NCBI RefSeq assembly: GCF_001895025.1
Contig: NZ_BCXI01000011.1
Span: forward strand, 62,001-126,000
Source of the DNA: Rhodococcus zopfii NBRC 100606 = JCM 9919
GTDB lineage: Bacteria; Actinomycetota; Actinomycetes; Mycobacteriales; Mycobacteriaceae
Length of the DNA: 64,000 nt
Direction: 5' to 3'
The position numbers were made by a program, and so were the translations under genes. Positions 42,051-59,139 of the stretch are shown here, one piece after another. The notes below the pieces were generated by a model. That model was not told the origin of the DNA, ran no database searches, and saw only the letters and a program-made list of their open reading frames with translations. Position 1 is the stretch's first letter. Every line of letters begins with the position of its first letter.

Positions 42051-42608
42051 GTGATCGATGAAGCCCTCTTCGAGGCCGAGGAGAAGATGGAGAAGGCCGT
42101 CACGGTGGCCAAGGACGACCTCGGTGGCATCCGTACCGGTCGGGCCAACCCCGGCATGTTCAATCGTATCGTCGTCGACTACTACGGTTCGCCGACGCCG
42201 GTCACCCAGATCGCCAGCATCAACGTGCCCGAGGCGCGCATGGTGATCGTCAAGCCCTACGAGGCATCGCAGCTGGGCGCGATCGAGACCGCGATCCGCA
42301 ACTCGGATCTCGGCGTCAACCCCACCAACGACGGCAACATCATCCGCATCTCCGTTCCGCAGCTCACGGAGGAGCGCCGTCGCGAACTGGTCAAGCAGGC
42401 CAAGGCGAAGGGCGAGGACGCGAAGGTCGCGGTGCGTAACGTCCGCCGCAAGGCGATGGACGAGCTGAACCGCATCCAGAAGGACGGCGAGGCCGGTGAG
42501 GACGAGGTGAACCGCGCGGAGAAGGATCTCGACAAGACCACCGCAAAGTACGTGGCGCAGATCGACGATTTGGTCAAGCACAAGGAAGCCGAGTTGATGG
42601 AGGTCTGA
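42051..42608 (+). CDS. frr: Ribosome recycling factor
   Basis: 185 residues, the standard length. It splits post-termination ribosomes with EF-G. Sequence: [26 protein letters not shown], then [38 protein letters not shown] start with TGGAGGAACT upstream. cdsA begins 2 bases after its stop. Confidence 0.97.
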
Positions 42609-45647: not shown

Positions 45648-45688
45648 CGGGTTACCGATCGCACACCGGGGCACTGCCCGCATCATGG

Positions 45689-45694
45689 GATAAT
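45689..45694 (+). promoter_or_regulatory. Candidate rlmN -10 box (GATAAT), leaderless
   Basis: GATAAT ends 8 bases before the ATG at 45703, with no Shine-Dalgarno between. Confidence 0.5.
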
Positions 45695-45702
45695 CGGTGA
45701 TT

Positions 45703-46812
45703 ATGGCTTCTTCCCTGCCCCTGGTGTTCGACGCGCCCAAGCGCGGCATGCCCCCGCGTCACCTCGCCGACCTCGACTCCGAGCAGCGGCGTGAGGCGGT
45801 GCGCGAACTCGGGCTGCCCGCGTTCCGCGCCGACCAGCTTGCCCGGCAGTACTACGGGCGGCTCGAGGCGGACCCGGAGAAGATGACGGATCTGCCCGCG
45901 GCGATGCGGGACAAGGTCGGTGAGGCGTTGTTCCCGACGCTGCTGACCCCGGTCAAGCACATCGCCTGCGACGGCGGCGAGACCCGTAAGACGCTGTGGC
46001 GGGCCGGCGACGGCACGCTGCTCGAGAGCGTGCTCATGCGCTACCCGGAGCGAGCCACCCTGTGCATCTCCAGCCAGGCCGGCTGCGGCATGGCCTGCCC
46101 GTTCTGCGCGACCGGGCAGGGTGGCCTGAACCGCAACCTGTCCACGGCGGAGATCGTCGACCAGGTCCGGGCCGCGGCGGCTGCCCTGCGCGACGGCGAC
46201 GTGGCCGGAGGGCCGGGCCGGCTGTCCAATGTGGTTTTCATGGGGATGGGGGAGCCGCTCGCGAACTACAAGCGGGTCGTCGCCGCAGTGCGCCGCATCA
46301 CGTCCCCGTCGCCGGAGGGACTCGGATTGTCGCAACGGTCGGTGACCGTGTCGACGGTCGGGCTGGCCCCGGCGATCCGCCGACTCGCCGACGAGGACCT
46401 GCACGTCACGCTCGCCGTCTCGCTGCACACCCCCGACGACGAACTGCGCGATACCCTCGTCCCGGTGAACAACCGCTGGCCGGTCGCCGAGGTGCTCGAC
46501 GCGGCCCGGTACTACGCGGACAAGACCGGTCGTCGCGTGTCGATCGAGTACGCGCTGATCCGCGATATCAACGACCAGCCGTGGCGCGCCGACATGCTCG
46601 GCAAGAAACTGCACAAGGCGCTCGGCCCGCTCGTGCACGTGAACCTCATCCCCCTCAACCCGACCCCGGGCAGCAAGTGGGATGCCAGCCCCAAGGACGT
46701 GGAGCGCGAATTCGTGCGTCGCGTCCAGGCGCAGGGCGTCTCGTGCACCGTGCGCGACACCCGCGGCCAGGAGATCGCGGCAGCCTGCGGTCAGCTCGCC
46801 GCGGAAGGCTGA
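45703..46812 (+). CDS. rlmN: 23S rRNA/tRNA adenine-C2 methyltransferase RlmN
   Basis: 369-residue radical-SAM enzyme methylating A2503 of 23S rRNA and A37 of some tRNAs. The 4Fe-4S cysteines are in [46 protein letters not shown] and [20 protein letters not shown] follow. The C-terminal catalytic cysteine is in [14 protein letters not shown]. The ATG at 45703 is preferred over a GTG six bases earlier because of the -10 box spacing. The last 22 bases overlap the convergent LysR gene. Confidence 0.95.
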
Positions 46813-47723
46813 TCCGCCGGATCCGTTCCCGCCTCGCGGAAAAATTCTGCGGCGCAGTGTAATTCGGCGCTCACCGCGGCAAGGAGCGGATGTGACCGGC
46901 TACCCGCGCGGTACGCGATGCGGGTCCGCCGTCCGATCGGCAGAGCTGTGAGCACGACGCCCTCGGGTACGTCGATCAGTCCGAGCTGCGGAACCAGCGC
47001 TACCCCGGCGCCCGCCGAGACGAGCCTCAGCACGGTGGCGAAGTCGTCGACGTGATGGGCCACCTGCGGTTCGAAACCGTGGTTCAGGCAACTGCGCACC
47101 GCCATGGTGTGGCACAGGGTGCCGGGGTTGCCGACGATCCAGCGACTGGTGGCGTGGCTGCCGATCGCTGTGTCCGCGGGCTCACCCGGAGCGGTCTGCG
47201 AGGCCAGGTACACGGCCTCGTCGAGCAGCGGTTCGAGTTCGATGCCCGCGCCCATCGTGGACGGTACGTTGTCGTATTCGTGCACGAGCGCGATGTCCAG
47301 GTGATCTCCGCGGAGCAGATCCGGCACGTCGGCCGGGTCGACCTCGGTGACCGTCGGCTCCAGGCCCGGCTCGGTGCGTCCCAGCTCGATCAGGGCGGGC
47401 AACACGATCGCCCGCAACGCGGTCGGAAACGCGCCGAGCCGAACCGATCCGGTCAGGCGCGTCTCGCTCGCCGCGAGCGCGGCCAGCGCTCGTTCCAGGT
47501 CGGCCAGGATCACCTCGGTGTGCTCGACGAGGACCGCTCCGGCCACGGTGAGGCGAACGCGGCGTCCCGTGCGGACCAGCAGCGGCTGTCCGGCTTCGCG
47601 TTCGAGAGCCGACAGTTGCTGGGATACCGCCGAGGGCGTGTAGGAAAGCGCGGCCGCGACCGCTGCGATGGTGCCGCGATGGGCGAGTTCGCGCAGCAGC
47701 CGGAGTTTACGGAGGTCGAGCAT
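46791..47723 (-). CDS. LysR-family transcriptional regulator
   Basis: 310 residues. The N-terminal HTH is [42 protein letters not shown]. The periplasmic-binding-like effector domain runs from about residue 90. It is divergent from the DapA-like gene with a 70-base gap, the classical arrangement for a LysR regulator and its target. TAAGCT at 47730-47735 on the minus strand ends 6 bases before the ATG, suggesting leaderless transcription. Confidence 0.9.
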
Positions 47724-47793
47724 CAGTTCAGCTTACGTTCGGCGTCATGAAGAGTAACTGGACCTTTCGGAGGGGCGGCTGAAGGCTGGGGGA

Positions 47794-48693
47794 ATGACCT
47801 TCCGTCCCTCAGGAATCCTCGTTCCGCTCGTCACTCCCTTCGCCGACTCCGGGCACGTCGAGGCCGCAGACCTGCACCGCCTCGCACAGACCGTGATCGA
47901 CGACGGTGCCGCCGGACTCGTCGCGCTGGGCACCACCGCCGAGGCGGCAACCCTGAGCCCGCAGGAACGCCGCGACGTCGTGCGGGTCTGCGCTGCGGTG
48001 TGCCGCGAGCGTCGGGTGCCACTGTTGGTGGGCACCGGAACCAACGACACGGCCGGAACCGTGCGCGCCCTGAACGAAGTGGGGGAGCAGCCCGACGTCG
48101 CGGGTGCCCTGGTGGTGGTCCCGTATTACACGCGCCCGACCGAGGCCGGTGTCGTCGCACACTTCGAGTACGTCGCCGATCGCAGCCCGGTGCCGATCGT
48201 CCTGTACAACGTGCCGTATCGCACCGGCCAACAGCTGGGCTGGGAGTCGGTCGTGCGGCTGTCGGAGCATCCACGGATCGTCGGCGTCAAGCAGGCCGTC
48301 GGCGCGATCGACACCGATACCGCGCGCCTGCTTGCGGAATGCCCCGCAGAATTCTCGGTGCTCGCGGGGGAGGACACGCTGGTCTCGCCGCTGCTCGCGA
48401 TGGGGGCAGCGGGAGCAATCGCGGCGACCGCGAATGTCTGTGCCGCCGAGTTCGCCGGCCTGTTCCGGTCCTGGAGCGCCGGCCGGGTCGAGCAGGCACG
48501 CGACCTGGGTAATCGGCTCGCAGCTCCCGTCTCCGCGCTGATGTCCGGTCCCAACCCGACCGTCATCAAGGCGGTACTTCACGCGCAGGGGAAGATCTCG
48601 TCCTCGAATGTCCGGTTGCCACTGCTTCCGGCCGACGACGCCGCGGCGATCGCCGGGGTACTCGCGCACCTGTCCGCCCAGGTGGGGCGCTGA
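47794..48693 (+). CDS. DapA-family (dihydrodipicolinate synthase-like) aldolase
   Basis: 299-residue TIM-barrel lyase/synthase. GILVPLVTPF, GAAGLVALGTTAEAATLSPQER, and the Schiff-base lysine in RIVGVKQAVGA. PYYTRPTEAGVVAHFEYVAD and YNVPYRTGQQL also fit. The GTTAEA in place of the GTTGES of true lysine-pathway DapA, and the control by a LysR regulator, suggest a catabolic relative such as an N-acetylneuraminate-, KDG- or hydroxyproline-type enzyme. No lysine gene is beside it. Confidence 0.82.
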   Translation: MTFRPSGILVPLVTPFADSGHVEAADLHRLAQTVIDDGAAGLVALGTTAEAATLSPQERRDVVRVCAAVCRERRVPLLVGTGTNDTAGTVRALNEVGEQPDVAGALVVVPYYTRPTEAGVVAHFEYVADRSPVPIVLYNVPYRTGQQLGWESVVRLSEHPRIVGVKQAVGAIDTDTARLLAECPAEFSVLAGEDTLVSPLLAMGAAGAIAATANVCAAEFAGLFRSWSAGRVEQARDLGNRLAAPVSALMSGPNPTVIKAVLHAQGKISSSNVRLPLLPADDAAAIAGVLAHLSAQVGR

Positions 48694-48731
48694 CGGCGCG
48701 TCTCGTGACCCGTGAGTTCCCACCCTGACTT

Positions 48732-48788
48732 GTCGAGCGAATGTATCGTCCGTCTCCTTCAACCGACCGAACGGTACGTTCGCTCGAC
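48732..48788. terminator. Inverted repeat between dapA-like gene and histidine kinase
   Basis: Arms 48732-48745 and 48775-48788 pair over 14 positions with one G-T pair; the 29-base loop contains the kinase stop codon. It sits between convergent genes and probably terminates both. Confidence 0.5.
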
Positions 48789-49961
48789 GTGTCCCCGGGC
48801 GGGGGCTGCACGCGCGCCGGTGCGGGCGGCCGGGGCGGGCAGACGCAGAGTGAACCGGGCCCCGGCCCCTGCTCCGGCGCTCGAGGCGGTCAGGGTGCCA
48901 CCGTGGGCCTCGACGAGGGCACGGGCGATGGTCAGTCCGATGCCGCTGCCGCCCTCCTGGTGGCGGCGGGCGGTGTCGGCGCGGTAGAAGCGATCGAACA
49001 GGTGCCCCAGGTGCTCGGGCGCGATGCCTTCGCCGGTGTCGGTGACGGTGATTCCGGCCCACCCGTCGCCGGCATCGGCGGTGACGGTGACAGCGCCCCC
49101 GGTAGGAGTGTGGCGCAGGGCATTGTCGAGCAGGTTACCCAGCACCTGCCCGATCCGGTCCGGGTCGACGGTGACAGCGGCGGGTAGTTCCACGCGATCG
49201 ATCAGGGCGACATTCTTGGCGGCGTAGCGGTCGCCGGCGGCGCGTATCGCGGTGGCGACCAGTGTCGCGGTGTCGGTGGCAATGGGGTCGATGCTCAGCC
49301 GGCCCTCTTCGGCGCGGGAGACGGCGCCCATGTCCTCGGCCAGTCGTTCGAGTCGGGAGGTACTCGACCGGAGGATCGTCAGCGTTTCGGTGTCGGCGAC
49401 GCGGATGCCGTCTTCGAGGGCTTCGAGGTGGGCGTCCAGGGTTGCCAGCGGGGTGCGCATCTCGTGCGCGAGGTCCGAGAGCATGCGGCGGCGCGTGGTT
49501 TCGATCGAGTCCAGCCGATGGGCGAGCCGGTTGATCGTCTCGGCGAGCTGGTCGAATTCGCGCCCGAGGCCGGGACCGGTCAGCCTGGAGCTGTACCGCC
49601 CTCCGGCGATGTCGGTGGCGGATGTGGCGACGGCTGCGATCGAACGCTGCACCCGGCCGGTGAAATACCAGCTCACGGCCAAGGCCATCAACACCGAGAC
49701 CAGCAGCGCAATAGCCAGCGAGATGATCATCGCCGACGCGAACGCCTCCTCGACGTGCGCCGCCTCGGTCGAGACGTGCTCGATGCCCGCCTGCTGGAGA
49801 TGATTGTGGAACAGCCCGGGGGCGACGGCGGCAGCAACCAGCCAGGCGCTGAGCGCCCCGCCGAGCACGACCAGTGTCTGGGCGGCGAGCAGCCGGCTGC
49901 CGAATCCGAAACCTGTGCGTGGGTGTGCCGGGCCGGTGACCGGTCGGGGCGGTGTGCTCAT
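48759..49961 (-). CDS. Sensor histidine kinase of a metal-linked two-component system
   Basis: About 400 residues. Two membrane segments (about 24-46 and 78-102) flank a short external loop of about 30 residues containing HNHLQQAGIEHVSTEAAHVEE, histidine-rich enough to bind a metal. A HAMP domain follows, then the phospho-acceptor DLAHEMRTPLATLDAH, and the ATPase domain with GNLLDNALRHTP, DTGEGIAPEHLGHLFDRFYR and GGSGIGLTIARALVEAHGG. Start ATG at 49961 overlaps the response-regulator stop by 4 bases. Next to copper-type genes, so Cu sensing is inferred. Confidence 0.9.
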   Translation of the reverse strand: MSTPPRPVTGPAHPRTGFGFGSRLLAAQTLVVLGGALSAWLVAAAVAPGLFHNHLQQAGIEHVSTEAAHVEEAFASAMIISLAIALLVSVLMALAVSWYFTGRVQRSIAAVATSATDIAGGRYSSRLTGPGLGREFDQLAETINRLAHRLDSIETTRRRMLSDLAHEMRTPLATLDAHLEALEDGIRVADTETLTILRSSTSRLERLAEDMGAVSRAEEGRLSIDPIATDTATLVATAIRAAGDRYAAKNVALIDRVELPAAVTVDPDRIGQVLGNLLDNALRHTPTGGAVTVTADAGDGWAGITVTDTGEGIAPEHLGHLFDRFYRADTARRHQEGGSGIGLTIARALVEAHGGTLTASSAGAGAGARFTLRLPAPAARTGARAAPARGHVERTYRSVG

Positions 49962-50728
49962 CGGCCGGCTCCCATCCGGTAGCCGACACCACGCACGGTG
50001 CGCACGAAGATGCCGCGGGTGGCGTCGTCGCCGAGTTTGCGACGTAGATGCCCGATGTGCACATCGACGAGGTGCTCGTCGCCGACCCAGCTCGGCCCCC
50101 ACACCGCGGCGATCAGCCGGGTTCGGGTGAAGACCACGTTCGGGTACTCGGACAGCGCGGCGAGGATGTCGAATTCGGTGCGGGTCAACGAGACCGAAGA
50201 ACCGTCGACCCACACCTCGCGGCCCGCCGGATCGATTGTCAACGGACCGAAGGTGCGGCGCGGGGACAGGTCGGCGGAGTGGGCGTTCCCGCCCCCGGTC
50301 GAGGGCCGGGGGCGGCGCAGCATGGCCTGGATGCGGGCGATGAGTTCACGCGGGCTGAACGGTTTGGTCATGTAGTCGTCGGCCCCGACCGAGAGTCCGA
50401 CCAGAGTGTCGATCTCGTCGGCCCGTGCGGTGAGCATGACGACGTAGGCGTCGGAGAACGTACGCAACTGCCGGCAGACCTCGATCCCGTCCAGGCGCGG
50501 TAGCCCCAGATCCAATACGACGACATCCGGATCGACCTGCCGGGCCCGGGCGACGGAGTCGAGCCCGTCGTGCACGAGTGCGACCTCGAACCCGGCGCGT
50601 TCGAGGTAGGTGCCCACGACCGTGGCCAGCGCCACCTCGTCCTCGACGACGAGCGCGCGCAGACCGGTGGGTGGGGCCACCGGAACGGGGAGAGAGGCAG
50701 GGGTGAGCTGACCGGAATCGTGCGCCAT
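49958..50728 (-). CDS. OmpR-family response regulator
   Basis: About 256 residues. Receiver domain with phospho-acceptor Asp in DVVVLDLGLPRLDG and the conserved TARADEIDTL and KPFSPREL. The OmpR winged-helix domain follows, with SLTRTEFDILAALSEYPNVVFTRTRLIAAVWG and VDVHIGHLRRKLG. I prefer the ATG at 50728 because CACGAT (50735-50740) ends 6 bases before it; a GTG at 50764 would add 12 residues. It probably binds the CTTCA repeats at 50769, 53987 and 54057. Confidence 0.9.
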   Translation of the reverse strand: MAHDSGQLTPASLPVPVAPPTGLRALVVEDEVALATVVGTYLERAGFEVALVHDGLDSVARARQVDPDVVVLDLGLPRLDGIEVCRQLRTFSDAYVVMLTARADEIDTLVGLSVGADDYMTKPFSPRELIARIQAMLRRPRPSTGGGNAHSADLSPRRTFGPLTIDPAGREVWVDGSSVSLTRTEFDILAALSEYPNVVFTRTRLIAAVWGPSWVGDEHLVDVHIGHLRRKLGDDATRGIFVRTVRGVGYRMGAGR

Positions 50729-50768
50729 CTCTCCATCGTGTCCGGTCCCGCGGTGTGGGTCCACTTCT

Positions 50769-50784
50769 CTTCAGAGAACCTTCA
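50769..50784. promoter_or_regulatory. Response-regulator operator 1 (CTTCA-N6-CTTCA)
   Basis: An exact direct repeat of CTTCA with 11-bp period, in the gap between the response regulator and the first SHOCT gene. It lies about 41 bases before the regulator ATG and 75 before the SHOCT gene, so it could serve both. Flanks also match the two other copies (second repeat followed by TCGAAC here, CCGAAT at 54073). Confidence 0.6.
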
Positions 50785-50858
50785 TCGAACACCCATGCCC
50801 GGCCCCGGGTCGCGCACCCACACTCGTATCGGAGCCGGAGGAGGAAGGGACGGTCGTC

Positions 50859-51119
50859 ATGTGGGACGCGATGGGCTGGGCGGGCTGGACGGTCATGTCG
50901 CTGGTCATGGTCGGCTTCTGGGTGCTGGTGGCGGCCGGCATCGCCGCGTTGTTCCGACCCGGCCACCGGACCGAACCACCGGTGCGGCCGAGGTCATCGG
51001 ATCCGTGGGGTGCCCTGGACGAACGGCTGGCTCGAGGGGAAATCGGCATCGACGAATACCGGGCGCAGCGGGGAGGACCGGCATCCGCCCGGCCGACCCG
51101 GGGTGCGGGAGAAGGCTGA
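50859..51119 (+). CDS. Small SHOCT-domain membrane protein
   Basis: 86 residues. A Trp/Met/Gly-rich N-terminus (MWDAMGWAGW) leads into one membrane segment (about 10-33). A C-terminal SHOCT motif follows: DPWGALDERLARGEIGIDEYRAQR. SHOCT modules are short oligomerisation elements on membrane proteins. First gene of a unit with the P-type ATPase, which starts 45 bases downstream. GGAGGAAGGGA lies upstream. It is a paralogue of the gene at 53585-53863. Confidence 0.82.
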   Translation: MWDAMGWAGWTVMSLVMVGFWVLVAAGIAALFRPGHRTEPPVRPRSSDPWGALDERLARGEIGIDEYRAQRGGPASARPTRGAGEG

Positions 51120-51163
51120 CAGCGACGAGGGTCCACGCAGGACCGACGGAGGTTTCCGAGCGT

Positions 51164-53551
51164 ATGGACAACACCACTGTTCTCGAAGTGGGCGGGCTGC
51201 ACTGGGCGACATCGACGGCGACGATCGAATCGGTGCTGCGCCGCCGCCCCGGCGTCGTTTCGGTGCATGCGAACGCGGTCAACCAGACCGCCTCCGTCAC
51301 CTACGATCCGGACCGGACCTCGGTCGCGGAGCTCTCGAAGTGGGTGCGGGAGTGCGGCTATCACTGCGCCGGCCGTTCGGTGCCCCAGCACGTGTGCGAC
51401 CCGATGGCCGAACCGGCGACCGCCACCGCACATCCGATGCCGGCGGTGCACGCCGGGAACGGCATGCCCGCCGGGCACGCACCGCAGGAGACGATGGGCC
51501 ACGGCGGGCACGCCGGGATGTCGATGGACGCGATGGTGCGCGACATGCGCGATCGCTTCCTGGTGGCGCTGGTGCTGTCGATCCCGATCATGCTGTGGTC
51601 GCCGATGGGCCGTGACATGTTCGGGTTCACGGTGCCGGCCCCGTTCGGCCTGCGCGACGACGTGTTCGCGCTGCTGCTGAGCCTGCCGGTGGTCTTCTAC
51701 TCGTCGTGGATCTTCTTCGACGGTGCCTACCGGGCATTGAAGGCCCGCACCCTGGACATGATGGTGCTCGTGGCCGTCGCGATCGGCGCCGGCTGGCTCT
51801 ACAGCGTCGGGGTGACCCTGACCGGCGGTGGCGAGGTGTTCTACGAGGCCGCTTCGGTGCTGGCGACCTTCGTGCTGCTCGGACACTGGTTCGAGATGCG
51901 CGCCCGCGGCGGTGCGAACGACGCGATCCGCACCCTGCTCGAACTCGCTCCACCGAAGGCGGTGGTGCTGCGGGACGGCGAGCCCGTGGAGGTCCCCACC
52001 GCCGAGGTCGTGGTGGGGGATGTGCTGCTGATCCGGCCGGGTGCGAAGGTCCCGGTCGACGGTGTCGTCGCCGACGGCATCTCCGAGGTCGACGAATCGA
52101 TGGTCACCGGGGAATCGCTGCCGGTGTCCAAGGCGGAGGGCTCGGAGGTGATCGGTGCGTCGATCAACACCACCGGCACGCTGCGGGTGCGGGCAACCAA
52201 GGTCGGTTCGGACACCGCCCTCGCGCAGATCGTGGCGATGGTGCAGGAAGCCCAGAATTCCAAGGCGCCGGGCCAGCGTCTGGCCGATCGGGCCGCGTTC
52301 TGGCTGGTGCTGGTCGCCCTGATCGGCGGGGTCGGCACGTTCCTGGTGTGGTGGCTCGTCGGCGGCGACGTGCAGATGGCGCTGTTGTTTGCGATCACCG
52401 TCGTGGTGATCACCTGCCCCGACGCGCTCGGGTTGGCGACCCCGACCGCGATCATGGTCGGCACCGGTCTCGGCGCCAAGCGTGGCGTGCTGTTCAAGAA
52501 CGCGACCGCTCTCGAGACCTCGGCGCGGATCGACACGGTCGTGATGGACAAGACCGGCACCTTGACCAAGGGCGAACCGGAGGTCACCGACGTCGTCGTC
52601 GACGGTCTCGACGAGAACGAGCTGCTGACGTTGGTAGCCGCGGTCGAACGCGAATCCGAGCATCCCCTCGCCGGGGCGATCGTGCGTTACGCCACGACCC
52701 GCGACATCGCCGGGGCGTCGCTCGAGAACTTCCGGAACGTGCCGGGGCACGGCGCGGTCGCCGAGGTGCGGGGGCGTCGGGTAGCGGTGGGCAACCGCAA
52801 GCTGATGGTCGCCGAGAACGTCGACTTCGGGTCGCTGATGGACCGTCGCGATGCGCTCGCCTCCACCGGCCGCACCGCCGTGCTCGTCGCCGTGGACGGC
52901 CGCGGGGTCGGGGTGATTGCCCTGGCGGATGCGGCGCGGGAGACCTCGGCCGAGGCGGTTGCGTCGCTGCACGAGCTCGGCATCGAAGTGGTCATGCTCT
53001 CCGGCGACAACGAGGCCACCGCCCGTCGCATCGCCGGGCAGCTCGGCATCGACGCCGTCATCGCCGAGGTCCTGCCCGGCGACAAGGCCGACAAGGTCGC
53101 CGATCTGCAGCGAGCCGGCAGGACCGTTGCGATGGTCGGCGACGGCGTCAACGATGCGCCGGCGCTCGCGCAGGCGGATCTGGGTATCGCGATCGGCGCG
53201 GGCACCGACGTCGCCATCGAAACCGCCGATCTGGTGCTGATGCGTTCGGACCCGCTGGATGTGCCGATCGCGCTGCGGATCGGTCGCGGCACGCTGCGCA
53301 AGATGCGCCAGAACCTGGGGTGGGCCGTCGGATACAACACCATTGCGTTGCCGATCGCCGCCGGCGTGTTCGAACCGGCCTTCGGGCTGGTGCTGCGTCC
53401 GGAGATCGCGGCGCTGTCGATGTCGGGGTCGAGCCTGATCGTCGCGGTCAACGCGCTCACGCTCAAACGGCTGCACCTGCCGTCCCCACCACAGGAGGAG
53501 CCGGCGGCGCGCCCGGCGCCGGAACCCGTCCCGACCGGCCCACACCGCTGA
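51164..53551 (+). CDS. Heavy-metal P1B-type ATPase (probable copper exporter)
   Basis: 795 residues. Residues about 5-70 have an HMA-like fold, but GLHWATS replaces the metal-binding GMxCxxC. A Met/His-rich linker (about 85-125) follows. Eight membrane segments are predicted; the sixth carries Cys418-Pro419-Asp420 (ITCPDALGLATPTA) where copper pumps have CPC or CPH. Other ATPase motifs are intact: TGES, phosphorylated Asp462 in DKTGTLTKGEP, the ATP-binding HP in ESEHPLAGA, and GDGVNDAPALAQAD. Copper is inferred from family and neighbours; the CPD variant leaves the ion uncertain. Confidence 0.88.
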   Translation: MDNTTVLEVGGLHWATSTATIESVLRRRPGVVSVHANAVNQTASVTYDPDRTSVAELSKWVRECGYHCAGRSVPQHVCDPMAEPATATAHPMPAVHAGNGMPAGHAPQETMGHGGHAGMSMDAMVRDMRDRFLVALVLSIPIMLWSPMGRDMFGFTVPAPFGLRDDVFALLLSLPVVFYSSWIFFDGAYRALKARTLDMMVLVAVAIGAGWLYSVGVTLTGGGEVFYEAASVLATFVLLGHWFEMRARGGANDAIRTLLELAPPKAVVLRDGEPVEVPTAEVVVGDVLLIRPGAKVPVDGVVADGISEVDESMVTGESLPVSKAEGSEVIGASINTTGTLRVRATKVGSDTALAQIVAMVQEAQNSKAPGQRLADRAAFWLVLVALIGGVGTFLVWWLVGGDVQMALLFAITVVVITCPDALGLATPTAIMVGTGLGAKRGVLFKNATALETSARIDTVVMDKTGTLTKGEPEVTDVVVDGLDENELLTLVAAVERESEHPLAGAIVRYATTRDIAGASLENFRNVPGHGAVAEVRGRRVAVGNRKLMVAENVDFGSLMDRRDALASTGRTAVLVAVDGRGVGVIALADAARETSAEAVASLHELGIEVVMLSGDNEATARRIAGQLGIDAVIAEVLPGDKADKVADLQRAGRTVAMVGDGVNDAPALAQADLGIAIGAGTDVAIETADLVLMRSDPLDVPIALRIGRGTLRKMRQNLGWAVGYNTIALPIAAGVFEPAFGLVLRPEIAALSMSGSSLIVAVNALTLKRLHLPSPPQEEPAARPAPEPVPTGPHR

Positions 53552-53584
53552 CACCGCATGCCCTCCGGTGCAGGTCGGCACCGA

Positions 53585-53863
53585 TCACCGCTTCGTGGTG
53601 GGCGGTCCCGGCCGATGCGAGTGCAGGGCCTCGAGGCGACGCCGGAACTCGTCCTCGTCGATCTCGCCGTGCGCGAACCGGGTGGCGAGGATGTCCTCCG
53701 GGGTCGGTCCCGGCGCAGGCGGCGGTCCCGGCTGCGGCCCCGGACTCATCGCTCGCACCAGCATGACCAGACCGACGACCACCAGCGCCCAGAACAACAC
53801 CATCGCGACAGTCATCAGAACATAGCCCCAGCCACCCATGCCGTCGCCGTACCAGAACATCAT
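53585..53863 (-). CDS. Second small SHOCT-domain membrane protein
   Basis: 92 residues. N-terminus MMFWYGDGMGGWGY (Met/Trp/Gly/Tyr-rich, possibly metal-binding), one membrane segment (about 15-38), a Pro-rich linker and a SHOCT motif TPEDILATRFAHGEIDEDEFRRRLEAL. GAGGAG lies about 9 bases before the ATG at 53863. Converges on the ATPase gene (33-base gap) and is divergent from DUF305. Related to the protein at 50859-51119. Confidence 0.82.
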   Translation of the reverse strand: MMFWYGDGMGGWGYVLMTVAMVLFWALVVVGLVMLVRAMSPGPQPGPPPAPGPTPEDILATRFAHGEIDEDEFRRRLEALHSHRPGPPTTKR

Positions 53864-53986
53864 GGAAACCACTCCTCGCGCTCGACGGTGTTCTCCGGGG
53901 CGCCGGCCCGGCAGAGCCGGCCGATAGGCCGATACGTCCCGACTCCACGCTGCCCGTCCTCGATGCACTGTTCTGCGTCGTTTCCG

Positions 53987-54002
53987 TGAAGATCTGGTCG
54001 AG
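53987..54002 (-). promoter_or_regulatory. Response-regulator operator 2 (CTCGA-N6-CTTCA)
   Basis: On the minus strand, CTCGA and CTTCA repeat with 11-bp period, 124 bases before the second SHOCT gene and pointing towards it. The second repeat is followed by CGGAAA, similar to the other copies. Confidence 0.5.
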
Positions 54003-54056
54003 ATCGTCTCGACCCGAGCCTGGACGGAAGTCCTCGATCGGCCACCGCCCGCCGGT

Positions 54057-54072
54057 CTTGACGGAATCTTCA
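54057..54072 (+). promoter_or_regulatory. Response-regulator operator 3 (CTTGA-N6-CTTCA)
   Basis: CTTGA and CTTCA with 11-bp period point towards the DUF305 gene, 145 bases upstream of it. GATAGT (54085-54090) is a possible -10. The rest of the 353-base gap (53864-54216) holds a tandem GGCCGATA pair at 53919-53934 and a small GCCGGC hairpin, neither assigned. Confidence 0.5.
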
Positions 54073-54216
54073 CCGAATGCTCCGGATAGTCCCGAGGTCG
54101 GACTGACACGCTCGGCTCCGGACGAGGCACAAGGGCCGGCGGGCCGACGGAAGTGCCAGGGACCGGCTGGTCCGTACTCGTTCGCCCGCCGCGCACACGA
54201 GGGAAAGGCGTAGACG

Positions 54217-54939
54217 ATGGAGAAGAACATGCTTGCGGGGAAGAAGTCCCTGGCGGCTGGAGCTGTGGCGGTCGCGGCGGCCCTCACCCTGGCGGCCTGT
54301 GGTGACTCCGGCAGCAATCAAACCACCGAAACCAGCACGCCGGCCGCCGTCAGCGCCACCGCCTCCGCCGAAGCCGCCGAGAACCACAACCCGGCCGATG
54401 TGATGTTCGCGCAGCACATGATTCCGCATCACTCCCAGGCCATCGAGATGAGCGACATCGTCCTGGCCAAACAGGACATCGATCCCCGGGTGGCCGAGGT
54501 GGCCCAGCAGATCAAGGCCGCACAGGGACCGGAGATCGAACAGTTGCAGAGCTGGCTGGCGGCCTGGGGGCGACCCGGTATGCCTCCGCGCAGTGGCATG
54601 CCGATGACGAGCCCGGAGATGCCGATGTCCTCACCCGGGATGGGAATGCCCCGGAACGACATGCCGATGCAATCCGGCACCATGCCCGGCGGTGCGATGG
54701 GCGGGATGAGCGGGATGATGTCCGCCGAGGACATGGCCGCGCTGCGCAGCGCCCAGGGCATCGACGCTTCTCGTCTGTTCCTGACCCAGATGATCGAACA
54801 TCACCGCGGTGCGATCGAAATGGCGCAGACCGAGATCGACGCCGGGGAGAACCCCGACGCCGTGGCCATGGCCCGCAACATCGTCGACACCCAGCAGCAG
54901 GAGATCACCACGATGGAGAACATCCTGTCCTCGCTGTAA
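54217..54939 (+). CDS. DUF305 methionine-rich lipoprotein
   Basis: 240 residues. Signal peptide with lipobox LAAC (Cys28). Two DUF305 halves each contain a His-His pair: FAQHMIPHHSQAIEMSD (about residues 65-80) and FLTQMIEHHRGAIEMA (about 188-203). Between them is a Met/Pro/Gly linker (about 120-170) with repeated PGMPP, MPMxS and GMSGMM units, of the type that binds Cu(I). DUF305 proteins are often found with copper efflux genes. AGGGAAAGG precedes the ATG; an ATG at 54229 is an alternative. Confidence 0.88.
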   Translation: MEKNMLAGKKSLAAGAVAVAAALTLAACGDSGSNQTTETSTPAAVSATASAEAAENHNPADVMFAQHMIPHHSQAIEMSDIVLAKQDIDPRVAEVAQQIKAAQGPEIEQLQSWLAAWGRPGMPPRSGMPMTSPEMPMSSPGMGMPRNDMPMQSGTMPGGAMGGMSGMMSAEDMAALRSAQGIDASRLFLTQMIEHHRGAIEMAQTEIDAGENPDAVAMARNIVDTQQQEITTMENILSSL

Positions 54940-54996
54940 CCCGGCGTCGTCGACCGTGCACCTCGGCGTCTTCGACCTGTGGGTGGGGCGGATATG

Positions 54997-55036
54997 CGGC
55001 AGGGCGCGCCCGGAACGTTCCGGGCGCGCCCTGCCG
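54997..55036. terminator. Perfect 40-bp palindrome (bidirectional terminator)
   Basis: Positions 54997-55016 and 55017-55036 are exact reverse complements with no loop, centred on GGAACGTTCC. It lies between the convergent DUF305 and DUF2631 genes and can fold identically in both transcripts. No T tract follows on either side. Confidence 0.7.
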
Positions 55037-55050
55037 AAATCGCTGTGCGA

Positions 55051-55296
55051 CTACCGCGGCCGGCGGCGCTTGACGGCGTCGACCACGATAATGAGCACGA
55101 GGAGCGCGGCGAAGCCGATGAGGTACCAATCCTCGACGCGGCCGTGGTGGTTGCCGATGATCATGAACAGCAGGAAGATCGCGGCGATCACGCCCATGGT
55201 GCGGAACAGCTTGGGAGCTTCGCCGCTCCAACCCCATTCCGCCGACGGCACCTCGGCCGTGTCGACGTGAGTGGACTGCAACTCGGTACCGGCCAC
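55051..55296 (-). CDS. DUF2631 family membrane protein
   Basis: 81 residues, the actinobacterial DUF2631 family (Rv2876). The N-terminal hydrophilic part ends in [13 protein letters not shown], then two membrane segments (about 32-48 and 57-73) with [11 protein letters not shown] between, and a basic RRRPR end. GAGGAGGAAC lies upstream. Function unknown; the position before dxr is conserved. Confidence 0.85.
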
Positions 55297-55431
55297 GGTT
55301 GTTCCTCCTGCTCGAAAGATCGCGCTGTTGGGCTAATCGTGACATACGACCGCCTGTCGTATGAAGCGGGGGCGGCGCCCGCGCGTCGCCGGCTGTCCCG
55401 ACCGATTCAGGAACGGTTCAGGTGCATCAGG

Positions 55432-55437
55432 AACAAT
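55432..55437 (+). promoter_or_regulatory. Candidate dxr -10 box (AACAAT), leaderless
   Basis: AACAAT ends 6 bases before the GTG at 55444, the same layout as CACAAT at 3650. Confidence 0.35.
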
Positions 55438-55443
55438 AGTCGC

Positions 55444-56613
55444 GTGGTCGACACAGAATCCCGCTCTCGTACCCGCGTCCTGCTGCTCGGCAGCACCGGA
55501 TCGATCGGCACCCAGGCACTCGAGGTTATCGACGCCAACCCCGACAAGTTCGAGGTCGTCGGCCTGGCCGCGGGCGGTGGCAACCTTGCCCTGCTCGCCG
55601 AGCAGATCCGCGCGACCGGTGTCACCGACGTCGCCGTCGCGAACCCGGACGCCGCGGCCCGGCTGGAGTTGCCGCACGACGGTGTGACGATCCGCAGCGG
55701 CCCCTCCGCGGTCACCGAACTCGTGCGCGAGACCGAAGCAGACGTCGTCCTCAATGCGCTCGTGGGTTCGCTCGGTCTCGAACCGACCCTCGCGGCCCTT
55801 GCGGCGGGCGCGCGGCTTGCGCTCGCCAACAAGGAATCGCTGGTCGCCGGTGGCGCGCTCGTCACTGCCGCGGCGGCGCCCGGCCAGATCGTGCCTGTCG
55901 ACTCGGAACATTCGGCGCTGGCGCAGTGCCTGCGCGGCGGCACCGCCGGTGAGATCGCTCGACTGGTGCTCACGGCGTCGGGCGGACCGTTCCGCGGGTG
56001 GAGCGCCGAGCAACTCGAGGACGTCACGCCCGAGCAGGCCGGCGCCCATCCGACCTGGTCGATGGGGCCGATGAACACCCTCAACTCGGCGACCCTCGTC
56101 AACAAGGGACTCGAGCTCATCGAGGCGCACCTGCTGTTCGGCATCGGCTACGACCGCATCGACGTCACCGTGCATCCGCAGTCCATCGTGCATTCGATGG
56201 TGACGTTCACGGACGGTTCGACGCTCGCGCAGGCGTCGCCGCCGTCGATGAAGCTGCCGATCGCGCTGGCCCTGGCCTGGCCGGACCGGGTGCCGGAGGC
56301 TGCCCCCGCCCTCGACTTCGCCACGGCCTCGACCTGGGAATTCGCGCCCGTCGACAATGCTGTGTTTCCCGCGATCGAACTTGCCCGCGCGGCCGGACGC
56401 GGTGGCGGCAGCCTCACCGCCGTGTACAACGCGGCCAACGAGATCGCCGCCGAGGCGTTCCTGGCGGGTGCACTGCCGTTCCCCGGGATCGTCCGCACCG
56501 TCGAGACGGTGCTCGACGACGCACACGAGTGGTCCGCGGAACCCGCTACCGTGGATGACGTGCTCGCCGCCGACGGCTGGGCTCGGGACCGAGCCCGCGC
56601 GCTCGTGAAATAG
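55444..56613 (+). CDS. dxr: 1-deoxy-D-xylulose 5-phosphate reductoisomerase
   Basis: 389 residues. Second enzyme of the MEP isoprenoid pathway, NADPH-dependent and the fosmidomycin target. The NADPH site is [37 protein letters not shown] and TASGGPFRG bind metal and substrate, and [22 protein letters not shown] is the flexible-loop region. The GTG at 55444 gives a usual short N-terminal extension. rip1 and ispG follow in the same direction, as in mycobacteria. Confidence 0.96.
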
Positions 56614-56626
56614 GAGGAGCGGCCAG

Positions 56627-57847
56627 ATGATGTTCGTGCTGGGCGTGGTGATCTTCGCCCTCGGCATCACCGCCTCCGTCGCGTTGCACGAGGCCGGTCA
56701 CATGTGGACCGCGCAGAAACTCGGCATGAAGGTGCGGCGGTACTACATCGGCTTCGGCCCGCGGATCTTCTCGTTCCGCCGCGGCGAGACCGAGTACGGT
56801 CTCAAGGCGTTGCCCGCCGGTGGTTTCTGCGACATCGCCGGGATGACCGCACTCGACGAGCTGGCGCCCGACGAGTACGACCGCGCGATGTACAAACAGA
56901 AGACGTGGAAGCGCCTGGTCGTGATGTCCGGCGGCATTGCCATGAACTTCCTGATCGGCATCGTGCTGGTCTACGGCCTCGCCGTGACCTCCGGCCTGCC
57001 CAACACCGAAACCCGCGCCGTGGTCGGCACCGTCGGGTGTGCCGCCCCCACCCAGGCCGGTGCTGAGGGCGGCTACCAGCCCGCCGAATGCGAGGGCATC
57101 GGTCCGGCCGAGGCCGCCGGCATCCAACCGGGCGACATCATCGTCGCGGTCGGCGACACCCGCGTCGAAACCTTCGGTCAACTGGTCCAGGCCACCCAGC
57201 CGCTGTCCGGCACCGTCGATTTCACCGTCGAACGCGGCGACGAGACTCTCACGTTCCCGGTCGCGGTGCAGCAGGTGCAGCGCTGGGTGTACGAGAGCAG
57301 CGACCGCAACGCCGAGCCCGTCTCGCGCGAGGTCGGCGCGATCGGCATCGGGGGGGAGCCCCGCGAACTCGAGTACTCGGCGTTGTCCGCTGTCCCCGCG
57401 ACCTTCGAGTTCACGGGATATCTTGCCGCGCGCACGGCCGAGGCTCTCGTGCAGCTGCCGTCGAAGGTGTCGGACCTGTGGACCGCGGTGACCGGCGGTG
57501 AACGGGCCATCGACACCCCCGTCAGTGTCGTCGGCGCCAGTGTCATCGGCGGCCAGTTCGCCGAGGCCGGTATCTGGCAGTCCTTCGTGCTGCTGCTCGC
57601 CCAGCTGAACTTCTTCCTCGGCGCGTTCAATCTGGTGCCGCTGCTGCCGCTCGACGGCGGGCACATGGCCGTGGCGATCTACGAGCGCCTCCGCAACTGG
57701 GTGCGCAACCTGCGCGGCCTCGCCGACGGCCCACCCGTGGACTACATGAAGCTGCTCCCCATCACCTATGTGGCCGTGGTCGTCGGTGGTGCGTACATGC
57801 TGCTGACGCTCACTGCGGACATCGTCAACCCCATCAAGCTGCTCTGA
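56627..57847 (+). CDS. rip1: Site-2 protease Rip1 (RseP family)
   Basis: 406-residue intramembrane zinc metalloprotease. The HEAGH site is at residues 21-25 in the first membrane segment; the third zinc ligand is in NLVPLLPLDGGH (about 335-346). A PDZ domain lies between (about 115-215, GPAEAAGIQPGDIIVAVGD). In mycobacteria Rip1 cleaves anti-sigma factors and controls envelope lipids. AGGAGGAGCGG precedes the ATG. Placed between dxr and ispG, as in M. tuberculosis. Confidence 0.95.
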   Translation: MMFVLGVVIFALGITASVALHEAGHMWTAQKLGMKVRRYYIGFGPRIFSFRRGETEYGLKALPAGGFCDIAGMTALDELAPDEYDRAMYKQKTWKRLVVMSGGIAMNFLIGIVLVYGLAVTSGLPNTETRAVVGTVGCAAPTQAGAEGGYQPAECEGIGPAEAAGIQPGDIIVAVGDTRVETFGQLVQATQPLSGTVDFTVERGDETLTFPVAVQQVQRWVYESSDRNAEPVSREVGAIGIGGEPRELEYSALSAVPATFEFTGYLAARTAEALVQLPSKVSDLWTAVTGGERAIDTPVSVVGASVIGGQFAEAGIWQSFVLLLAQLNFFLGAFNLVPLLPLDGGHMAVAIYERLRNWVRNLRGLADGPPVDYMKLLPITYVAVVVGGAYMLLTLTADIVNPIKLL

Positions 57848-57857
57848 CCTGCGCCGC

Positions 57858-57863
57858 TAGAAT
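57858..57863 (+). promoter_or_regulatory. Candidate ispG -10 box (TAGAAT)
   Basis: TAGAAT fits TANNNT, 30 bases before the ispG GTG. ispG also has a ribosome site (GAAGGCG), so this would be a leadered mRNA. Confidence 0.4.
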
Positions 57864-57892
57864 CGGCAGGTAGCGACGAAAGAAGGCGAAAC

Positions 57893-59047
57893 GTGACCAG
57901 CCCCATCGGTTTGGGCATGCCCGAAGTACCTGCGGTCCTCGCACCGCGACGCAAGACCCGTCAGCTCATGGTCGGTGATGTCGGGGTCGGCAGCGACTAT
58001 CCGGTGTCGGTGCAGTCGATGTGCACCACCAGGACGCACGACATCAACGCGACCCTCCAGCAGATCGCCGAACTCACCGCCTCCGGCTGCGACATCGTCC
58101 GTGTCGCGTGCCCGCGGCAGGAGGACGCCGACGCGCTCGCGACCATCGCGAAGAAGAGCAAGATCCCGGTCATCGCCGACATCCACTTCCAGCCGCGCTA
58201 CATCTTCGCGGCGATCGACGCCGGTTGCGCCGCGGTGCGCGTCAACCCCGGCAACATCAAGGAGTTCGACGGCCGCGTCAAGGAGGTCGCGAAGGCAGCC
58301 GGGGACGCCGGCATTCCGATCCGCATCGGCGTCAACGCCGGATCCCTCGATCCGCGGCTGCTGAAGAAGTACGGCAAGGCCACGCCGGAGGCGCTCGTCG
58401 AATCCGCGCTGTGGGAGGCGAGCCTGTTCGAGGAACACGGCTTCGGTGACATCAAGATCTCCGTCAAGCACAACGACCCGGTCGTGATGGTCGAGGCGTA
58501 CCGGCAGCTCGCCGCGCAGTGCGACTACCCGCTGCACCTCGGGGTCACCGAGGCCGGCCCGGCGTTCCAGGGCACGATCAAGTCCGCGGTCGCGTTCGGC
58601 GCGCTGCTCTCGGAGGGCATCGGCGACACCATCCGCGTGTCGCTGTCCGCCCCGCCCGCGGAGGAGATCAAGGTCGGCACGCAGATCCTGCAGTCGCTGA
58701 ATCTGCGTCCCCGCAAGCTCGAGATCGTCTCGTGCCCGTCGTGCGGCCGCGCCCAGGTCGACGTCTACACCCTGGCCAACGAGGTCTCCGCCGGCCTCGA
58801 GGGCATGGAGGTGCCGCTGCGCGTTGCCGTGATGGGTTGCGTCGTCAACGGTCCGGGGGAGGCCCGTGAAGCGGACCTCGGTGTCGCGTCCGGCAACGGC
58901 AAGGGGCAGATCTTCGTCAAGGGGCAGGTCATCAAGACCGTTCCCGAGGCGCAGATCGTCGAAACCCTCATCGAGGAAGCGCTGCGCATCGCCGAGGAGA
59001 TGAAGGGCGACGCCGGAAGCGGCGCACCCACCGTGTCCGTGGGGTGA
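57893..59047 (+). CDS. ispG: 4-hydroxy-3-methylbut-2-enyl diphosphate synthase
   Basis: 384 residues. MEP-pathway [4Fe-4S] enzyme making HMBPP. Barrel: [43 protein letters not shown]. The cluster cysteines are in [11 protein letters not shown] (about 281-291) and [10 protein letters not shown] (about 318-327). GTG start. It completes the dxr-rip1-ispG unit, so two MEP enzymes are made here together. Confidence 0.96.
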
Positions 59048-59139
59048 GCCCCCACCCGCCACGAATCGGGACCAGGTTTCCGTAGAGCCGTAGCTCATGG
59101 CAATCTGGTCGGTATCGGCAGTCGACAGGTGGTGGGCAC

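Follow-up and report, generated by a model that had tools for sequence, protein, structure and literature searches.

CopR-type direct repeats in front of three predicted units of a copper-type island in Rhodococcus zopfii

A known relative of the system considered here is CopRS of Corynebacterium glutamicum. The response regulator CopR binds the sequence TGAAGATTTnnTGAAGATTT, as shown by gel shifts with mutated sites (PMC3140484). The site separates copR from a copper unit read in the opposite direction, and CopR activates the two (PMC3140484; review PMC3353115), and the position of the box is given as -59 to -78 (PMC3140484). In the parts of these sources drawn on here, only one CopR site is reported for the whole C. 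glutamicum genome (PMC3140484; PMC3353115), and the residues H39, H41, H56, M42 and M44 are named for the loop of the sensor kinase CopS (PMC3140484). A copR homologue has also been described in C. crenatum, in passages that name no binding site (PMC11124244). The present study concerns a 64,000-nt stretch (the window) of contig NZ_BCXI01000011.1 of Rhodococcus zopfii, whose genome comprises 6.30 Mb in 146 contigs, and three short direct repeats within an island of copper-type genes that also encodes a two-component system.

An earlier note on this DNA had placed three copies of an 11-bp-period repeat in front of neighboring genes and proposed that one local OmpR-family two-component system controls all of the units. 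The repeats are present letter for letter: CTTCAGAGAACCTTCA at 50769-50784 (+), CTCGACCAGATCTTCA at 53987-54002 (-) and CTTGACGGAATCTTCA at 54057-54072 (+), referred to below as S1, S2 and S3. Judged from sequence, the proposal of common control is also supported, and the island is very probably a CopRS-type copper-response regulon with three sites for separate units, namely SHOCT1-ATPase, SHOCT2 and DUF305/CopM. Control by the local system is favored because the repeat matches the experimentally mapped CopR box; because good matches in the genome itself, whether by pattern or by the sequence-only model described below, are confined to the island; because in other genomes the box tends to accompany related regulators and to match them in place and strand; because the footprints are conserved with a fixed spacing to a -10-like element; and because the recognition helix of the regulator resembles that of regulators behind the exact box and not those of 11 other regulators of the same genome.

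The repeats and the two-component system

As the earlier note had stated, all three copies are intergenic. One lies between the divergent genes for the response regulator and SHOCT1-ATPase; the other two share the gap between SHOCT2 and DUF305, which are also divergent. Read on the opposite strand, every copy has the form TGAAG-N6-TSRAG. The tandem arrangement TGAAGATTT-N2-TGAAGATTT with its 11-bp period can be recognized, and the core TGAAGRTYYNNTSRAGA occurs in all three sites. Of the 18 specified letters of the full C. glutamicum box, 13 are matched by each site, the second halves being degenerate. As a lone scoring string the full box was rejected as unspecific, since a score of 13/18 was reached at five window positions: the three sites, one shifted register of S3, and one position at 47748. 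S1 is placed as in C. glutamicum, between the regulator and a divergent copper unit and with the TGAAG strand equal to the regulator strand. The longest open reading frame of the regulator begins with a GTG at 50764, almost touching the first repeat. A start at the ATG at 50728 is more likely, and this would put the 17-bp box 39 nt upstream.

The pattern CTYSA-N6-CTTCA, which was derived from the three window copies themselves, has four matches on the two strands of the window. In 100 dinucleotide-preserving shuffles the mean was 0.15 (standard deviation 0.36, maximum 1), and four matches were reached in 0/100. The fourth match (42059-42074, minus strand) lies within a called gene at 42051-42608.

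The exact sequence TGAAGATTTGATGAAGA was found at four loci of relatives (L142-L145), 61-62 bp before a regulator that is 54% identical to the window regulator, a distance close to the published -59 to -78. The window regulator, a candidate orthologue of CopR, is 54-56% identical to regulators that follow an exact Corynebacterium-type box, and its best paralogue in its own genome is 50% identical. Its recognition helix reads GDEHLVDVHIGHLRRKL, against GDERIVDVHIGNLRRKL in the regulators with the exact box; in 11 further regulators of the R. zopfii genome that were compared the helices differ, the nearest being GDERVVDVHIRSIRRAL. The kinase has a short, His-containing extracytoplasmic loop, FHNHLQQAGIEHVSTEAAHVEEAF, in which FHNHL...AAH aligns with FHDHMLM...FH. 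The Corynebacterium-type loop, FHDHMLMTG...FHAEQAY, corresponds to the CopS residues named in the literature, both His and Met; of these, the window loop retains the His positions, while the Met positions are lost. Among named NCBIfam models, none of the 25 listed of 96 matches for the regulator or the 25 of 83 for the kinase reached its cutoff.

Promoter geometry, specificity and distribution

For the analysis of promoter columns, 65 sites of relatives were reduced to 54 by dropping 11 without copper-type neighbors (L137, L146, L152, L159, L160, L162, L164, L166, L167, L169 and L174), and to 36 by requiring less than 60% downstream identity between kept sites. The intergenic sites were aligned so as to read toward the resistance unit, with columns counted from the box start. 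Well past the box, the strongest columns of the alignment are +52 (A) and +56 (T). The two letters occur together in 41 of the 54 sites and, after thinning, in 26 of 36, against about 1.07 predicted by base composition; each is found in 71% of 68 sites when the 11 dropped sites and the three of the window are included. All three window sites have the pair, for which the chance is about 3e-5 by our own arithmetic from the relatives' base frequencies. The actinobacterial -10 consensus is TAnnnT. Columns 23-33 resemble a weak third 11-bp unit, with C23, A27 and A32 mirroring columns 12, 16 and 21, and this unit would extend to the -35 region. The short flanks singled out in the earlier note (cgaac, ggaaa, cgaat) do fall among the better-conserved downstream columns in relatives. 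When the window is set against two to four relatives in footprint alignments, the boxes and the -10 regions are conserved; the spacer between the S2- and S3-type boxes varies, at 52 bp in the window, 36 bp in L138 and 134 bp in L136.

The genome-wide scan proposed in the earlier note does not refute shared control: in the genome of R. zopfii, exact matches to the pattern from the three copies fall only in the island. The three zero-mismatch matches to TGAAGRTYYNNTSRAGA are exactly S1, S2 and S3. With one mismatch allowed, five more appear, all within genes called by a simple script, and a reversed-pattern control gave two. Since TGAAGRTYYNNTSRAGA came from the sites themselves, the test was repeated with the relatives' pattern TCTTSANCRRAYCTTCA. 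At up to one mismatch it gave four matches, the three sites with one mismatch each and one within a gene, and its control gave one.

Three models were also built from the relatives. A sequence-only model (R1), trained on 50 promoters without the window (L142, L143 and one each of L148/L149 having been omitted from the 54), ranked S1-S3 first to third in the genome with E-values of 1e-4, 0.0025 and 0.029, where 150 of 5776 first-look candidates were scored and where the training set includes orthologous promoters. The fourth match (E 0.43) lies inside the regulator gene. A covariance model (R2) of 31 rows, built without the closest orthologues L123, L135, L136 and L138, recovered S1 with an E-value of 0.0044 (150 of 4685 candidates scored). 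A full-length position weight matrix from the same 31 rows, run on the window, scored the three sites at 25.5, 21.5 and 20.1; the next best position scored -1.9, and the maximum in 60 simulated 64-kb sequences was 9.8.

Across the family, 301 genomes were searched, with a close regulator defined by an E-value of up to 1e-64. A strict box was found in 130 genomes and a close regulator in 106. Both are present in 78, the regulator only in 28, the box only in 52 and neither in 143 (Fisher p 3.6e-15), so that 78/106 regulator-positive genomes have the box as compared to 52/195 regulator-negative genomes. Place counts could be taken for 74 regulators from the 53 of the 106 regulator-positive genomes with box places listed. 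A box lies within 200 bp upstream at 50/74, and at 50/50 of these the TGAAG strand is the regulator strand. By identity to the window regulator, a box is present at 31/36 places with at least 70%, 11/26 with 60-69% and 8/12 with less than 60%. In the same 53 genomes, 82 of 108 listed boxes are within 20 kb of a close regulator. One early locus set was examined at 12 (L009-L020) of 80 loci.

Some loci of relatives have clusters of strict boxes: four in about 12 kb at L135 (G027:C211), six in about 9 kb at L136 (G186:C140) and five in about 12 kb at L138 (G196:C25). These clusters also precede ABC-transporter-like genes and appear as larger versions of the same regulon. At L159, L167 and L169, a different regulator of the OmpR family (45-48% identity) has a box variant ending TGGAGA at a distance of 46-67 bp. 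Two regulator-like matches (G263:C55:196138-196884 and G188:C21:78437-79141) each have one internal TGA.

Proposed control and rival explanations

A mechanism may be outlined from these data. The kinase would sense excess extracytoplasmic copper by its short His-containing loop and phosphorylate the OmpR-family regulator, which would in turn bind the 11-bp-period direct repeat TGAAG-N6-TSRAG. On the resistance side, the repeat, together with the weak third unit, stands at a fixed distance upstream of an nAnnnT -10-like element. From this fixed distance it is proposed that the regulator, once bound, activates transcription through the polymerase, and it would thus switch on SHOCT1-ATPase, SHOCT2 and DUF305/CopM together.

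Several results weigh against a single local CopRS-type regulon. The site counts are not independent since the relatives share descent. R2 did not recover S2 and S3 genome-wide among the 150 of 4685 candidates scored; in the window their scores are 10.2 and 11.4 bits, whereas genome noise goes up to 13.7 and a coding match at 50086-50133 reaches much the same level (10.4 bits). As a result, the genome-wide case for S2 and S3 rests on the patterns and R1, and the weight matrix speaks within the window only. A strict box is missing from 28/106 regulator-positive genomes and present in 52/195 regulator-negative ones, and 24/74 regulator places have no box inside 200 bp. Other genera were sampled at 20 more loci (L155-L174), where seven hits are in genes, five in copper-type islands, three beside a different OmpR-type regulator (45-48% identity) and five elsewhere between genes. 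The bare 17-mer thus has some background, and specificity is carried by position and spacing. A fixed -10 spacing was also looked for on the regulator-facing side of the aligned sites and none was seen. Autoregulation of the regulator and kinase genes by S1 read in reverse is likely by analogy, yet for this reason less certain than the control of the resistance units.

Of the other explanations, the first has the local regulator binding the repeats but acting as a repressor, or responding to another metal such as silver. The ligand is not told by sequence alone, and the ATPase, with CPD instead of CPC, passes both copper and cadmium cutoffs; however, the kinase loop retains the CopS-type His positions, and the box lies upstream of the -10-like element and not over it, which makes this explanation unlikely. 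Still less probable is that a different regulator, with targets elsewhere too, recognizes the repeats and that the nearby two-component system is incidental. The 52/195 genomes with a strict match and no close regulator and the variant box near a different OmpR-type regulator at L159, L167 and L169 would fit such an arrangement. When 11 loci from regulator-negative genomes were sampled among the 20, however, six were in genes and none was beside copper-type genes. In addition, all 50 regulator-near boxes are on the strand of the regulator, and the genome of R. zopfii has no other zero-mismatch site. That three short repeats are alike by chance deserves hardly any weight: the words are short and the pattern was built after the copies were seen, but four matches stand against 0.15 expected in the window, the footprints are conserved, and a -10 spacing derived from relatives is found at 3/3 sites.

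A CopRS-type regulon is therefore retained as the reading of the island. With moderate confidence, it may be extended to CopR-type systems across Actinobacteria, which would govern several copper operons through a common promoter plan: two strong 11-bp repeats and a weak one, followed at an exact distance by the -10, with the whole always oriented alike toward the resistance unit. The Rhodococcus version would have recruited a CPD-subtype ATPase and DUF305/CopM, so that box and spacing alone would predict the regulon in genomes of this kind. Such a promoter rule, combining box orientation with fixed -10 spacing, could serve as a regulon finder for Rhodococcus, Gordonia, Mycolicibacterium and Nocardioides, and poorly understood genes (SHOCT, DUF305/CopM and the CPD-motif ATPase) would be tied to one copper-sensing switch.

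The island and its relation to known systems

The features of the island are collected in Table 1. The island (45652-59100) is presumably flanked by an rlmN-like gene before it and by dxr, site-2 protease and ispG-like genes after it; thus it appears to lie amid chromosomal housekeeping genes, while the named relatives examined are plasmid-borne.

Table 1. Coordinates of the boxes, predicted promoter elements and genes of the R. zopfii island (window positions).
Feature	Position	Strand	Basis or remark
Sensor histidine kinase, CopS-like	48759..49961	-	HAMP, HisKA and HATPase domains; short loop
Response regulator, OmpR family, CopR-like	49958..50728	-	Pfam Response_reg and Trans_reg_C; start ATG 50728
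CopR-type box S1, TGAAGGTTCTCTGAAGA	50768..50784	-	TGAAG strand is regulator strand; between divergent regulator and SHOCT1-ATPase
Predicted -10-like CACACT, SHOCT1-ATPase	50819..50824	+	fixed spacing from S1
SHOCT1, small membrane-type protein before ATPase	50859..51119	+	no Pfam match; relatives have comparable genes at this position
P1B-type ATPase, CPD in metal-site motif	51164..53551	+	family models and motif
SHOCT2, small membrane-type protein	53585..53863	-	Pfam SHOCT, 27.4 bits (cutoff 27, narrow)
Predicted -10-like CAGCGT, SHOCT2	53947..53952	-	fixed spacing from S2
CopR-type box S2, TGAAGATCTGGTCGAGA	53987..54003	+	faces SHOCT2 (minus strand)
CopR-type box S3, TGAAGATTCCGTCAAGA	54056..54072	-	faces DUF305 gene (plus strand)
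Predicted -10-like CACGCT, DUF305	54107..54112	+	fixed spacing from S3
DUF305 protein, CopM-family metallochaperone match	54217..54939	+	Pfam DUF305; NF049983 CopM, 105.6 bits (cutoff 90)

The ATPase has CPD in place of CPC or CPH, and its heavy-metal domain is without CxxC. It scores above cutoff with TIGR01525 (general heavy-metal), TIGR01511 (copper) and also TIGR01512 (cadmium); since both copper and cadmium models are passed, they leave its metal unsettled. By motif match only, it agrees with P1B group VIc through CPDALGLATPTA (CPD, transmembrane segment (TM) 6), YNTIALP (YN(X)4P, TM7) and MSGSS (TM8). In the part of the source drawn on here, this group (CPD, YN(X)4P, MSGSS) is described from three rhizobial proteins (PMC5552934).

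CPD-type ATPases were also noted at L119-L121, L126, L127 and L214-L225, and CPD was found in 12/12 plasmid homologues examined. The idea that a CPD-ATPase always stands under a box was rejected, as 5 of these 12 plasmid copies (of 75 records) have a box about 0.7 kb upstream. All five are from Rhodococcus, four being identified by pattern and one by matrix score only; the other seven have no box within 3-kb flanks. Downstream of some plasmid copies of the CPD ATPase come genes for phosphoketolase (L215-L218, L223) or, at L225, for type II glyceraldehyde-3-phosphate dehydrogenase; these may perhaps provide a bypass of copper-sensitive glycolysis.

In the open-access literature searched, neither a paper on the CopR-type box in Rhodococcus nor a fixed box-to--10 promoter rule was seen among the matches listed. 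Close counterparts are copper islands on Rhodococcus plasmids, such as pRaL13f of R. aetherivorans (L123) and pRHL3 of R. jostii RHA1 (L119). These share a related response regulator and kinase, SHOCT and DUF305 genes, boxes in front and, in part, CPD-ATPase genes. They differ in being plasmid-borne, and some have a multicopper oxidase and more boxes; the regulator-side box of pRHL3 is a variant with two mismatches.

Tandem-repeat activators of the PhoB/OmpR class bind 11-bp direct repeats that extend to the -35 region, a feature they have in common with the window boxes, whereas half-site sequence and signal differ. With C. glutamicum CopRS the likeness is closer and includes the 11-bp-period repeat with a TGAAGAT core, an OmpR-family regulator adjoining its kinase, placement of the box where regulator and copper genes diverge, predicted targets that include an ATPase, and a short sensor loop with corresponding His residues. 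In contrast to the one site reported for C. glutamicum, the island has three sites for separate units. A multicopper oxidase is a target in C. glutamicum; the window island has no oxidase gene, and its predicted targets include a CPD-type ATPase, the SHOCT genes and the DUF305/CopM-like gene. Each window box is at a fixed distance from a -10-like element, a spacing not examined in the published C. glutamicum case. The island is best read as an extension of a known control system and not a new one, to which three sites for separate units and a promoter rule are added.

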